Shown here piece after piece: positions 19,953 through 25,310 of a DNA stretch of 64,000 bases (its first letter is position 1; every line of letters starts with the position of its first letter). The notes beneath the pieces are model-generated. The model made no database searches. It had not been told where the DNA came from and worked only from the letters and a program-made list of their open reading frames with translations. The position numbers were made by a program, and so were the translations under genes. Source of the DNA: a virus; the IMG/VR virus record IMGVR_UViG_3300009184_000033, positions 1 through 64,000 of that record; one strand, given 5' to 3'.

Positions 19953-20330
19953 TCACCCCAGGTCGTAGACGAACTTTCTCTTGTAGAGGACCACCTTGCG
20001 CGGGCTGTTGTATGACGCCTGCACAAACTCTACGGCATCAGACATACCAGGATTTGCCAACTTGATGTTCTGCCCAGACCTTTCTTTGTACGCGAGCTTC
20101 ACCTCTGCGATCAGGGAATCCACTCTCTGGTTGGCCTGGTCAGCCAGCATCGGTATGTTCTGCTGGATCGACCTCTCGCCAGGGAGATACGCCATCGTAT
20201 TGTAGTTTATGATCAGCCTGTTTCCAGCAATGTGCGGCTTGATCCCATAGGTCCCGTCGTTTGACGAAGCCTTTCCAAAGTCAGAGTTGATTATCTCTCC
20301 GAGCAGATTTACCTGTTGCATGCTTAGCAT
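19953..20330 (-). CDS. Small protein upstream of terminase, function unknown
   Basis: Product of 125 residues not recognised. The N-terminal half has short strands (GIKPHIAGNRLIINYNTMAYL), the middle is helical and polar (QQNIPMLADQANQRVDSLIAEVKLAYKERSG), and the end is basic (SPRKVVLYKRKFVYDLG). No cysteine and no signal or membrane segment. The ATG follows GAGGA by seven bases and overlaps the stop of the upstream zinc-finger gene. It ends three bases before terminase starts, so it is probably translated with it. Small terminase subunits commonly sit here, but this sequence shows no clear helix-turn-helix or coiled-coil core, so I do not assign that role. Confidence 0.7.
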   Translation of the reverse strand: MLSMQQVNLLGEIINSDFGKASSNDGTYGIKPHIAGNRLIINYNTMAYLPGERSIQQNIPMLADQANQRVDSLIAEVKLAYKERSGQNIKLANPGMSDAVEFVQASYNSPRKVVLYKRKFVYDLG

Positions 20331-20617
20331 GGTGAAGTCCTCAGCAGATAACTAGGAACCTGCTTGCGTTTTTTCCTGATCCCCTCTAATTCATCTCCCG
20401 TTGGGCGCCAACCAGACATCCACTTGGATTTGTTGGGATATGCGACCTCGATCTCACACAGTCTGCAGCATCCATAAGAGCTCTGCGCGAGCATGTCATT
20501 CCTGTCGCGAAGAAGGATCTTGCACACGGGGCATGCAAGGGGATTCCTGTTCGAGAGCTTGTTCTCCACGACAATCTTGACGTTCCCAACTTCTACTATC
20601 TTTCTGCTTTCACTCAT
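20324..20617 (-). CDS. Small zinc-ribbon protein
   Basis: Product of 97 residues, beginning at the ATG at 20617. Two cysteine pairs, CPVC near residue 30 and CRLC about 21 residues later, form a likely zinc-binding site; another Cys immediately precedes the second pair. The rest is basic, ending KRKQVPSYLLRTSPC. A longer reading from 20692 is rejected because its first 25 residues lie entirely within the upstream nuclease-ATPase gene. The chosen start overlaps that gene's end by eight bases, so translation is likely coupled to it. A nucleic-acid-binding role is possible but the partner is unknown. Confidence 0.75.
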   Translation of the reverse strand: MSESRKIVEVGNVKIVVENKLSNRNPLACPVCKILLRDRNDMLAQSSYGCCRLCEIEVAYPNKSKWMSGWRPTGDELEGIRKKRKQVPSYLLRTSPC

Positions 20618-23600
20618 AGTGCACTCTGGAGTCCTTGCCGTTGCTGGTGATCTCCACAAAGTTGTCAACAGCATCCTTGACGGCATCGACATGGGAGATC
20701 ACGAATATCACTCGGAACCACCGCTTGAGGCTCTGGAGCATCCTGTTACAGGCCTCGACATTCATCTCATCAAGGGCACCGAAGCCCTCATCAATGATGA
20801 GCATGTCGCTCTTTGGCAGGGAGGAGACATTGATGAGCGCGACACGGATCGCAAGAGATGCCATCATCTTCTCCATGCCTGAAGCGCACTCGATGATCCG
20901 CCTGGAGTCGCCGTAGTTGATGAAGACATCCATGGAGTTGGACTGGTGGTCCGCCTCTAGCTCAACTGTGAAACCGACCACACCCTGGAGGATCTTTGAG
21001 ATCTCTGAGTTGATCTTGGGCAGCTCGCTTGACAGGACCTGGAGCGGGATTCCGCGCTTGTTGGTCGCAACGACAATGTTCTCAAACACTGTCCACTCAG
21101 AGATCAGGCGCTGGTACTCTTTCTGCTCCTTCTCAAGCTGAGCAATGTTCGAGGTGGTGAGGCCTATCTTCTCACTGAGGCTGACCCTCTGCTGGTCACC
21201 ATTGCGAAGGGCATCATCAAGGGATGCCAGCTCCTTCTTCAGAGAGCTTACCTCGCTGGTCTCACCGACGTCCACAACGGAGTTCTTGGCGACAAGTAGA
21301 TTGTCATCCAGGCGGGCCACTTCCTTCTTTGCGTCGTCAAGCTCCCTGGTGATCCGCACCTTTGCGCTCTCAAGGTTGGCGACAGAGACCTTTGTCGCAT
21401 TCTCCTGGTCGAGGACCTTCTGGTACTTCTCTATCTTCTCGCCATAGTTCTCTTCAGAGATCTTCTTCAGCGTCTTTCTGATCGCATTGAGACCATCCTT
21501 GAGCTGGTCGCACTTTGCTACCTGGTCGTCAAGCGTCAGCTTGTTCTTGTGCGAGTCCTTGATGAACTTGCATGTAGGAAAGCCATCTCCACAAGGCACT
21601 TGCTCAAGCAGCTTGACTGACTTCTGCTGGCTTGAGAGCTCAATCTTTTCTCTCTCAAGTTCGTGCTCAAGCTTCAGTATCGACCTCTCGAGGTCGTTCT
21701 GCTCTGCAAGCTTTGCCTTCAGCTCCTCGATGGGAAACTGGCTCTTGATCGCAGAGATCTTCGTGAGCCTTTCCTTGGCGGCGGATATGTCAGAATCACA
21801 CTTGGCAAGATTCTGTGTCAATTGGTCTTGAAGCGCCTTGGCGTTATCAAGAGCTCGCTGGATCCTCTCCACATCCTCTTTGGTAACAAGCTTGTCTGCT
21901 CCAAGATCAGCAGACTTCTTCTTCAAGACTTCAATTCTGGACTTTGTGCTCTCCAGCTGAGACTCTACGTCCGCGCGTTCGTTCTTGAGGGACGCCAGCT
22001 CAGACTTCTTCTCGGAGATTGTAACATTCCAGTCGCGCTGCGGCATTCTATCAATGAGCGCCTTTGTCGGCAGTGACTCATTCTTTGCCATGTCGCAGAT
22101 CTTGTCAAAGATGTCGAGGTCTAAGAAGTTTGCCAGAGTGCTCTTTCTGAACGTGGACTTCTGCTTAATGAAGTTGTTCATCTCGCCCTGGCTCGCGAAA
22201 GAAGTCAGCAGGAAATCTTCCTTTGTGCCGATGAGCTCCTGCATCAGGACATCGGTGTCTCGGCGCTGCTCACCACTCACGTCCTTGAGGCTTCCGTTTG
22301 GAAGGATCTGAAAGATGTTGGCGTGCGTCTTACCTGATACCTCTCCAGACTTATTCTGATTCTTGACGGTCTGGCGCTCAAGTCGGTACTGCTGGCCATT
22401 GACGGTGAAGTCCAGCTCCACTGAGCAGTGGCTCTTTCGAGTGTTGATCACGTGGAGGTTCTTGACGATGCCACGGTCATTGGAGTTGTAGAGACCGTAC
22501 ATCATTGTGCCAGGAATCGAGGACTTTCCAATCCTGTTCTTTCCAAAGAGGCCGATCACTCCGCTGAGACCATCAAAGTTGATGTAGTTCTCTTTGCCGT
22601 ATCCAAACGTGTTATCGAACTTCATGGAATTCACAGACCACTTGACGTTTCTGACCGGATCAGACTTTCCAATCTCGTCGCAGTACTTTGTGACCTTTCC
22701 AGAGATCTTCTCCCAGGTCTCTTCACTAATCTGCTTGTTGCTATAGAACTGCTTGATGAGCTCCAAGATGTTGGCAGGATTGTGATAGTTGTGATCTTCA
22801 GTCGATATCGTCTCAGTGTCAACTGATCCGGCCTGGAGATCGTTATCGAACTTAAACACGATCTCAGACGCGTTCTTCTGCTCCTTGAGTTCAGAGTAGA
22901 GCAGCTTGATCTCAGCCTGGGGAAGGGCATCGGTGTGCCGCACCCTGAACCTCGATCGGTTAGGGAACTGGAGGGCGTGGCGAGCTGTCTCCATGACAGA
23001 GCCCTGCCAGTCGATGGTGATGAACGGAGAGGGGTTCTTGACTGGAATGAACTTCGAGCTGTAGCTGTCCTTCGAGCTGATCTGCCAGTACAGGAATCCC
23101 TTCTCGAGGTCTTCACCATAGTTCTGCTGGAGCGTGGAGCCTGGGTAAGCGATCCTCTTTGCTGAATCAAGATACTGGAACTTGTGAATGTCCCCCAGGA
23201 AACCGAAGTCGAAACCTTCGAACAGGTTGTTCTCAACCTCGCCCTCGATTTCGTACTCGCTGTCGATCTGAGAACCTCGAACTGCGCCGTGGAAGAGCGC
23301 AATGTTGATCTCTCCCGGCACAGGCTTGACGTCTGCCCACCCTTCTTCATCAAAGCAAGAGAGGACGCACCAGTTGTAGCCTGGAACGCCAGTCGGGTAG
23401 ACTCCAGACTTCTTGTACAGCGTGAGCCGTGGATTGTTCAGAGCGTTGATCAGCGGACTGATCGCATCTTGGCGGTCCTTGTTGGTGATGAGACCGTCAT
23501 GGTTTCCCAAGATGATGTGCGTGGGTGCAATCTCTGAGAGCTTGGAGAACCACCAGACAAGAATATCGACAAGCTCTGGCGAGATTCCCTGCGTCTTAGA

Positions 23601-23750
23601 GTGGACAACGTCACCACCGACCATGATGACGTCAGGCTTGAGATCCTTCGCCTTCAGGAAGAAGTCCTCAAACGCCTCTCGGTACTCATCGTGCCTGGAC
23701 AGGCCTCGAAAGTGGATGTCAGAGAGGTGTACGCAGCTAAATGACTTCAT
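20610..23750 (-). CDS. Single-chain Mre11-Rad50 (SbcD-SbcC, gp47-gp46) recombination nuclease
   Basis: DNA end-processing machine for recombination and repair, normally two proteins (T4 gp47 and gp46). Here one 1046-residue chain holds both. Residues 1 to about 340 are a calcineurin-like phosphoesterase with all metal motifs: Asp11-x-His13, GD at 46-47, GNHD at 82-85, His154 in LFHGAV, and GDIH at 186-189. From about 375 on it is an SMC-type ATPase: P-loop GKNRIGKSS near 403, long coiled-coil arms (about 570-890) with a central turn holding Cys720 and Cys727 (C-x6-C rather than the usual C-x2-C hook), a signature-like ASGMEKM near 955 and Walker B MLIIDEGFGALDE near 980. A GGAG precedes the ATG. 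The reading frame is uninterrupted, so fusion is not an artefact of frameshift within this sequence. It lies between primase and terminase. Confidence 0.93.
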   Translation of the reverse strand: MKSFSCVHLSDIHFRGLSRHDEYREAFEDFFLKAKDLKPDVIMVGGDVVHSKTQGISPELVDILVWWFSKLSEIAPTHIILGNHDGLITNKDRQDAISPLINALNNPRLTLYKKSGVYPTGVPGYNWCVLSCFDEEGWADVKPVPGEINIALFHGAVRGSQIDSEYEIEGEVENNLFEGFDFGFLGDIHKFQYLDSAKRIAYPGSTLQQNYGEDLEKGFLYWQISSKDSYSSKFIPVKNPSPFITIDWQGSVMETARHALQFPNRSRFRVRHTDALPQAEIKLLYSELKEQKNASEIVFKFDNDLQAGSVDTETISTEDHNYHNPANILELIKQFYSNKQISEETWEKISGKVTKYCDEIGKSDPVRNVKWSVNSMKFDNTFGYGKENYINFDGLSGVIGLFGKNRIGKSSIPGTMMYGLYNSNDRGIVKNLHVINTRKSHCSVELDFTVNGQQYRLERQTVKNQNKSGEVSGKTHANIFQILPNGSLKDVSGEQRRDTDVLMQELIGTKEDFLLTSFASQGEMNNFIKQKSTFRKSTLANFLDLDIFDKICDMAKNESLPTKALIDRMPQRDWNVTISEKKSELASLKNERADVESQLESTKSRIEVLKKKSADLGADKLVTKEDVERIQRALDNAKALQDQLTQNLAKCDSDISAAKERLTKISAIKSQFPIEELKAKLAEQNDLERSILKLEHELEREKIELSSQQKSVKLLEQVPCGDGFPTCKFIKDSHKNKLTLDDQVAKCDQLKDGLNAIRKTLKKISEENYGEKIEKYQKVLDQENATKVSVANLESAKVRITRELDDAKKEVARLDDNLLVAKNSVVDVGETSEVSSLKKELASLDDALRNGDQQRVSLSEKIGLTTSNIAQLEKEQKEYQRLISEWTVFENIVVATNKRGIPLQVLSSELPKINSEISKILQGVVGFTVELEADHQSNSMDVFINYGDSRRIIECASGMEKMMASLAIRVALINVSSLPKSDMLIIDEGFGALDEMNVEACNRMLQSLKRWFRVIFVISHVDAVKDAVDNFVEITSNGKDSRVHYE

Positions 23751-23760
23751 GTTTCTCCGA

Positions 23761-24720
23761 TTAGATGAGCGAGCCGCTTCTTATCTTAGTGAAGAGGTGA
23801 TGGAGGCGATCTTCAGGGGACCAAATCTTGGCCGCCTCTTTCCTAGCAAGGAACTCCTGCTTGGACATCTCGCCGACATCCTTAAAGGGCTCCACGTTCA
23901 TAACTCTAACTCTAATTCCATATGAATACAGACGGGAGCAGACTTTTTCTGACTTGTCCCTTGCGTCAGGATCCAGTGCCAGGACGACTGGAGTCATGTT
24001 TGTTACTATCTTTCTAAAGAGCTCATAGCCCTCGTTGAGTCCAGATCCGAGAAGGGTCACTGCGTTCCTGTCGCACTTGACTAAGTCAAATGGCCCTTCG
24101 ACGATTGTGAGCTCTTTCTTCCAGTCGATGTTGATCTCGTTGAAGATGAGGCCCTTCTTCTCCGCCTTGGAGTTCATGTACTTGTACTTGCTTTCAGGAT
24201 CGATGGATCTGGCAGTGATGTAGTTGAGCTCTCCCTCAGAATCAAATGAGGGCATGATCACTCTACGTCGGTACTTTCCAGAAGAACAAGCGCCGAGCTT
24301 GAAGTACCAGATATCACGCTCTGTCAAGCCTCTTGACAGGCAATACTCTCTAGATGCCTGTATGTCTGGATCGAGGCTGTCGGCTGCCGGACCGAGCGGC
24401 ACAAAGTCGCTTGGCAGCTCAACCTTCTCCTTGACTTCTTCGGCTAGAACGCTGTCATAGTCTCCCGATTCGAATATCCGGAGGTACATGTCAAGCTTAT
24501 CTGGCGCATACTTCTTGACAGTATACGTAAGCGTCTTGCCCTTGAGTTCACAGACCCAACAGTGGTGAAGTCCATTCTCAAGCTGGATGATGAGCTTCTT
24601 CTTATCGGGATTGTCTTTCGAGCACTTTGGACAGGCGACGGCGACCGCGCCTTTGTTTACTACTCCTGGACCAAAAATGGAAGTGATGAAATGCAGTTTG
24701 GCTTCGAGATTTACTTCCAT
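23761..24720 (-). CDS. DnaG-type DNA primase (zinc-binding and TOPRIM domains)
   Basis: Probably synthesises RNA primers for lagging-strand replication. The 319-residue product has an N-terminal zinc site Cys30-x2-Cys33 and Cys54-x2-Cys57, then an RNA-polymerase-like core with RRVIMPSFDSEGELNYITARS, then a TOPRIM domain with EGPFD at 208-212 and the metal-binding Asp250-x-Asp252. T4 gp61 has 342 residues, so size fits. No helicase domain is attached. The ATG lies three bases after the stop of the RuvC-like gene and has no strong ribosome site, suggesting coupled translation. It lies just upstream of the Mre11-Rad50 fusion. Confidence 0.88.
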   Translation of the reverse strand: MEVNLEAKLHFITSIFGPGVVNKGAVAVACPKCSKDNPDKKKLIIQLENGLHHCWVCELKGKTLTYTVKKYAPDKLDMYLRIFESGDYDSVLAEEVKEKVELPSDFVPLGPAADSLDPDIQASREYCLSRGLTERDIWYFKLGACSSGKYRRRVIMPSFDSEGELNYITARSIDPESKYKYMNSKAEKKGLIFNEINIDWKKELTIVEGPFDLVKCDRNAVTLLGSGLNEGYELFRKIVTNMTPVVLALDPDARDKSEKVCSRLYSYGIRVRVMNVEPFKDVGEMSKQEFLARKEAAKIWSPEDRLHHLFTKIRSGSLI

Positions 24721-24723
24721 ACG

Positions 24724-25284
24724 CTAATTTACATCTACAGACTTCCGTTGTTCAAGCCCTGCGACCGCGATCACAATTGAGTCAGCAATGTCGAAGTGGT
24801 GGGTCTCGATTACCATCTGACCCTTCTTCTTGCCAGTCTTCACGGCTCTCGATGTAGGAGTGTAGCCAAACTTGGCGGTGGCCCACTCAAGCACCTGCTC
24901 CTTGGTGTCACGGGTCCTGTCTATCTTGAGGGAGACCAGCTTCCGCGCTGCCGTGACATTGATGTACTCTGGAACGATGCCCAGCTCCAGAAACACTATG
25001 TACGATGCCACGCCGTTGAATCTGGCCAGAGTGAGGAGCGTTCCAGCAGATGAGAGACCCGGCCTGAATCCCTGCAGGTTCTCCTCGATGTAGACAGCGC
25101 TTATGTGCTGTTTAGTGACCTTGCACTGGCGAAGCCACTGGCTGAGCTGTATCCTGAAGCTGTTCGCCTTCTGGAACATGTCGTCTCCACCAGGCTTTAT
25201 TGCCATCGTGTGGAGCAGTTCTCCATCGCTCGATATGATGGAAGCACCTGTGCAAGAAGTCGATATGTCTAGACCTAGAATCAT
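24724..25284 (-). CDS. RuvC-like Holliday junction resolvase
   Basis: Metal-dependent endonuclease of the RNase H fold, probably resolving branched DNA before or during packaging. The 186-residue product has the three acidic motifs of the family: LGLDIS with Asp6, the YIEEN block with Glu67/68, and the C-terminal HHFDIADSI with Asp165 and Asp168. Length is close to RuvC (about 170 residues). The ATG at 25284 is chosen; a TTG six bases upstream would add two residues. No good ribosome site is visible, so the start is less certain. T4 uses an unrelated endonuclease VII for this task. Confidence 0.85.
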   Translation of the reverse strand: MILGLDISTSCTGASIISSDGELLHTMAIKPGGDDMFQKANSFRIQLSQWLRQCKVTKQHISAVYIEENLQGFRPGLSSAGTLLTLARFNGVASYIVFLELGIVPEYINVTAARKLVSLKIDRTRDTKEQVLEWATAKFGYTPTSRAVKTGKKKGQMVIETHHFDIADSIVIAVAGLEQRKSVDVN

Positions 25285-25310
25285 GTTCAAAGGTATCTTG
25301 CAGGAACTGA

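Follow-up and report, generated by a model that had tools for sequence, protein, structure and literature searches.

Does a single viral reading frame encode both the Mre11 nuclease and the Rad50 ATPase, and if so, what kind of protein is it and what would it do for its phage? The question was raised by a 64,000-base window, a portion of a 132,044-base virus record, in which the initial annotation had proposed fused Mre11 and Rad50 homologues. The frame (20610-23750, minus strand) proved uninterrupted as claimed, with 1046 codons running from ATG to TGA and zero internal stops, and a Shine-Dalgarno-like TCGGAG precedes its ATG. Profile searches of the two halves, the check suggested with that annotation, bore it out. 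The first third was assigned to SbcD/Mre11 and the remainder to SbcC/Rad50 by Pfam, PHROG, NCBIfam and PDB searches. Pfam Metallophos matched residues 7-162 over its cut-off (E 2e-10) and PHROG 77 'SbcC-like' matched residues 372-1045 (E 2e-49); the Pfam SbcC_Walker_B and SMC_N matches fell under cut-off. A 64-member family profile matched solved E. coli SbcC/Rad50 (E 2e-30) and SbcD/Mre11 structures (down to 2.7e-15). It aligned E. coli SbcD 210-400 to residues 173-364 of the fused protein, which shows that the protein has both the capping domain and the helix-loop-helix. The Mre11 domain comes first and the Rad50 domain after it in one polypeptide, the arrangement that Yoshida and co-workers called a fusion in 2011. 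The gene and its parts are as follows.

20610..23750, minus strand: fused Mre11-Rad50 gene, 1046 aa (one open frame; family matches; 91 full-length single frames).
22971..23750, minus strand: Mre11/SbcD nuclease core and first half of the capping domain, residues 1-260 (Metallophos 7-162; conserved ligands; pLDDT mostly 85-96).
22668..22970, minus strand: second half of the capping domain and Rad50-binding helix-loop-helix, residues 261-361 (SbcD alignment; model helices; homologous stretch on split-phage Rad50).
22644..22667, minus strand: linker of ~8 residues, 362-369 (no secondary structure in the model; invariant W371 follows).
22110..22643, minus strand: Rad50 lobe I, residues 370-547, with P-loop GKNRIGKSS at 403-411 (invariant N405, G408 and K409; PDB Rad50 matches; model).
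21597..22109, minus strand: ascending Rad50 coiled-coil arm, residues 548-718 (model helices 546-568, 574-615, 624-671 and 674-717).
21570..21593, minus strand: hook CGDGFPTC, residues 720-727, with C720 and C727 (Cx6C in 72/76 rows).
21063..21560, minus strand: descending Rad50 coiled-coil arm, residues 731-896 (model helices 731-765, 769-823 and 832-896).
20613..21062, minus strand: Rad50 lobe II, residues 897-1046, with signature ASGMEK at 956-961, Walker B at 983-989 and H1020 (motif survey; signature comparison; model).

An AlphaFold monomer was predicted with a mean pLDDT of 85.6 and a pTM of 0.55, the latter attributed to the long arms. It contains the nuclease fold, helices at 325-335 and 343-361, an unstructured stretch at 362-369 and the first Rad50 strand at 370-379; two arms of ~170 residues each (546-717 and 731-896) border a loop at 718-730. 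Foldseek matched the model to the Rad50 heads of Mre11-Rad50 complexes (7zr1, 7yzp) and to the SbcD nuclease-capping structure 7dog (TMt 0.69). With the helix-loop-helix ending at about residue 361 and Rad50 starting at 370, sequence, conservation and model together support the proposal in the initial annotation of a single-chain Mre11-Rad50 with a probably fixed 1:1 stoichiometry. It is also plausible, and seems reasonable, that two fused chains would form the whole machine as a homodimer.

Full-length single frames numbered 91, corresponding to 89 different loci of 22-100% identity, and came from IMG/VR, GTDB genome contigs and phage records. Two contigs had been fetched twice (L022 is L005 and L023 is L008), and the 91 include Listeria phage LMTA-57, a likely artefact. 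The LMTA-57 frame differs by one base from ~50 near-identical two-gene phages and was rejected as an independent fusion; its locus (L110, 2907-5936) bears a single 'recombination exonuclease' annotation and likely reflects a sequencing error in the record. This precedent lends some colour to the reading that the window's fusion is likewise a sequencing or assembly artefact, or that an internal start yields two proteins, which we nevertheless consider scarcely credible. Against it stand the single frames at 89 loci, the residue conservation to either side of the linker, and the 100% identical copies of the gene in other contigs. A stop, frameshift or internal start at the junction had been named in the initial annotation as grounds for abandoning the fusion; no stop occurs there, and among the start codons inspected at residues 300-400 none is preceded by a clear Shine-Dalgarno sequence. 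The fusion was confirmed as genuine, with assembly error excluded.

Nine records were searched with the profile (the window's and eight others), and each held one high-scoring copy, fused. In the window's 132-kb record no second SbcC or separate SbcD-like nuclease was found; a second metallophosphoesterase (105271-105816, outside the window) was rejected as a separate SbcD, being a short calcineurin-type protein (256-aa frame) that by eye is without the SbcD C-terminal domains. The plasmid search gave no fusion at >80% coverage and only partial SbcC matches, and Rfam at its gathering threshold gave no match in the window, L003 or L004. Ten relatives of the protein from a 735-kb phage and 20 of that from a Microcystis phage made up further samples; all were fused except L160 (3304-6544), where the gene lies in two overlapping frames. 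Microcystis phage Mel-JY01 has the fused gene under the sole annotation 'AAA domain containing protein'. A large group of aquatic phages normally has Mre11-Rad50 in this single-chain form.

The novelty implied by the initial annotation did not survive comparison with the literature. In the passages used here, Yoshida, Claverie and Ogata (2011) describe Mre11/Rad50 fusions in Mimivirus (R555), bacteria, plasmids, eukaryotes and a Bacillus phage, a wider cellular and viral set that does not form one group (PMC3175470). They report that Asp replaces P. furiosus Mre11 His206 in R555, argue that a 9-12 residue linker suits the cis geometry of the Thermotoga complex, and infer that abundant aquatic homologues beside SPO1-related primases are viral, probably from phages (PMC3175470). 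By that published description, the window's protein shares with R555 and the aquatic fusions the Mre11-to-Rad50 order, the capping and helix-loop-helix domains, a short linker and Asp for the first His of the last metal motif, together with an aquatic phage setting and adjoining SPO1-like primases (PMC3175470). The fit is close, and this kind of protein was therefore already known. The window's chain is shorter (1046 aa against 1351 aa for R555), and the genes collected here are full-length phage genes, unlike the short metagenome pieces of 2011; the same passages contain no mention of a Cx6C hook or SGMEK signature (PMC3175470). What is less ordinary is that the ATP, metal and hook motifs are altered and that some relatives appear to have the gene re-split at a new place.

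The calcineurin-like phosphoesterase fold and four metal motifs conform to the Mre11 nuclease. Of the full motif set originally claimed, D11, H13, D47, N83-H84 and H154 stand, whereas the last motif (D187-x-H189) is GDIH and not GHxH. Among 76 aligned rows this motif is GDIH in 72 and ADIH in three, the exception being LMTA-57. GHxH is found in cellular, SPO1-type and T4-type nucleases, as in most of the unfused phage ones. Unfused T5-type D12 has GDLH, so Asp at this position is not unique to fusions, and DxH was discarded as a mark of fusion alone.

In the Rad50 half, the annotated P-loop, coiled-coil arms and Walker B were recovered; Walker A (403-411), Q-loop, Walker B, D-loop and H-switch are all present around a long antiparallel coiled coil, and a motif survey of the window's clade found four of them (Walker A, Q-loop, Walker B and H-switch) intact. 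The ABC signature was correctly placed, but reads SGMEK rather than SGGE (S-x-G-E), the second glycine having gone. Fused proteins have S-G-M-E (M also K or A) and re-split ones S-G-F/W-E; that glycine is kept in the unfused and cellular proteins compared, also in the otherwise deviant T5-like STGQQ. Homology to Rad50 over the whole domain is clear, and the change is therefore read as a within-family variant. At the apex, the hook of the window's group is Cx6C instead of CxxC (Cx6C in 72/76 rows), in our reading a variation of the hook; CxxC occurs in other fused lineages and in the unfused proteins. Rad50 reviews describe the signature motif and CxxC as conserved and essential.

Known two-gene systems compare as follows. 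T4 gp47/gp46 and SPO1 gp21.3/gp21.9 belong to the same two enzyme families and probably share the replication and recombination role, but have GHFH, CxxC and S-x-GEK and fall outside the fused clade. E. coli SbcCD has the same domain content, and its solved heads align to both halves of the fused protein; it differs in its two genes, longer SbcC (1048 aa alone), GHIH, CxxC and SGGES. The T5-type D12/D13 proteins (Demerecviridae, e.g. JSF10 and DaisyDussoix) share the Asp (GDLH), yet are unfused, carry a CxxC hook and are distant in the tree.

Trees were built from nuclease and ATPase-lobe alignments of rows found with the fused profile, the Mimivirus, plasmid and cellular fusions of the 2011 study being left aside; the trees contain long branches, and a root was not inferred. 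A fusion has been published for Bacillus phage 0305phi8-36. In these trees 25 fused proteins formed one group against seven unfused phage and six cellular pairs (support 100/99). A larger tree with distant fused proteins and five split pairs placed fused and split sequences in one group (100/100). On the question whether single-chain forms make up one clade, the sampled phage fusions did so together with the re-split lineage; the fused proteins alone were weakly supported (68/37), so the exact place of the split lineage is not fixed by the tree.

This lineage came to light among the relatives of an Mre11-like frame of 284 aa, which lies in a Bacteroidales-binned contig (L107). Five of its phage contigs (127-245 kb) carry both genes, with Mre11 and Rad50 separate and several kilobases apart. 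The split Mre11 matches the profile only up to about residue 240-257, and the split Rad50 frames have ~118 additional N-terminal residues. A profile of these extensions aligned to fused residues 281-357 (P 2.5e-5) and not to the Rad50 part; against the 735-kb-phage type it gave P 1e-5. These alignments are most simply explained by a split of a fused gene within the capping domain that left Rad50 carrying the helix-loop-helix; alternatively, the helix-loop-helix may already have been on Rad50 before fusion. Preferring a split of the fused gene, we put at about an even chance the larger proposal of a phage-wide single-chain clade with changed GDIH and SGxE (and Cx6C in the window's group), one large-phage lineage of which was re-split in the capping domain. 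If it is true, the fusion would be oldest, the changes in chemistry and hooking would follow, and the fission at a new boundary would be the latest step. In the large phages of L161-L169 and L170-L180, with separate Mre11 (GHIH) and Rad50 genes, the start of Rad50 is homologous to the Mre11 helix-loop-helix, an apparent fission of a fused gene.

The neighbourhood of the window's gene is conserved in part across 149 related loci, many of which are truncated and which are not independent.

23761..24720, minus strand: DnaG-type primase, immediately upstream and co-directional (PHROG 47 DNA primase, E 1.8e-39; homologue in 116/149 related loci).
24724..25290, minus strand: RuvC-like Holliday-junction resolvase, upstream of the primase (PHROG 159, E 1.7e-11; homologue in 86/149 related loci).
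20324..20611, minus strand: small conserved gene downstream that overlaps the fused gene's end (homologues in 86/149 loci).

The small gene had no Pfam or PHROG family match. Terminase and portal genes lie downstream of the fused gene, with a terminase homologue in 90/149 related loci. In SPO1, too, a primase adjoins the SbcC gene. A RecA-type recombinase was found in 8/8 other large records with the fused gene but not in the 132 kb of the record that contains the window. The other eight are longer (167-289 kb), and the window's record may therefore be incomplete.

T4 gp46/gp47 act in recombination-dependent replication, according to the passages used here (PMC3175470). From that role, the gene neighbours and the RecA-type survey, we infer that the most likely function is resection and tethering of DNA ends for recombination-dependent replication, and the gene is probably a single-chain Mre11-Rad50 (SbcDC) that serves its phage as gp47 and gp46 together serve T4. 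Two copies would dimerise via their nuclease domains and ATP-bound heads. Owing to the short linker, the helix-loop-helix of each chain would bind the Rad50 coil of that same chain (in cis), which would fix the 1:1 stoichiometry. ATP hydrolysis would give DNA ends access to the nuclease, the resected and tethered ends would allow a recombinase to begin recombination-dependent replication, and the RuvC-like enzyme would resolve branches ahead of packaging. The metal-site Asp and lost signature glycine could mean that activity is changed or weakened; host repair and host DNA degradation are alternative uses.

Because of those two substitutions, the protein might instead be mainly a tether for DNA ends or hairpins and a structural clamp, with nuclease activity or ATPase turnover lost or weakened. 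GDIH or ADIH in 75/76 aligned rows, and SG-M/K/A-E in fused proteins where unfused ones have S-x-G-E, are in keeping with such a clamp. We think it unlikely, as Asp is itself a possible metal ligand, the remaining nuclease ligands are conserved, T5-type D12 nucleases also have GDLH, and the window's clade retains intact Walker A and Walker B motifs as well as an intact Q-loop and H-switch. A main role outside phage replication, in degrading the host chromosome or in counter-defence (processing the ends that host defence nucleases leave), appears less likely again. T4 gp46 is annotated as required for both recombination and host-DNA degradation, but the window's gene sits in a block of replication, recombination and packaging genes (primase, RuvC-like, terminase, portal) and not in a variable accessory region.

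Mre11-Rad50 is an obligate 2:2 complex, and single-chain forms should ease its expression, mutation and study. The clade offers natural variants of Rad50 motifs thought essential (the second signature glycine and the CxxC hook) and a natural experiment on the fusion and fission of an enzyme pair. Tests are possible, since Mel-JY01, a sequenced phage with a named host, carries the fused gene.

In a 484-kb phage (LR756508; L003, 4656-5573), a 305-aa frame interrupts the Mre11 domain of the fused gene just past GDIH. It contains Cys-rich repeats and a TnsA-like endonuclease domain (PF08722, E 5.8e-06) and is probably a homing-type element; the part of the fused gene downstream of it has its own start codon. 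The break in L160, which may be a true split or a frameshift, falls at about the same Mre11 position, without an insert, and L015 (1414-4623) has a ~35-residue in-frame insert at that site, which may be a repeated mobile-element target. In L104 (3-110), the frame before the Mre11 remainder resembles by eye the C-terminal end of an intein (YCLSVLNENLLIRYNGKISISGN, then C), directly past the catalytic GNHD.
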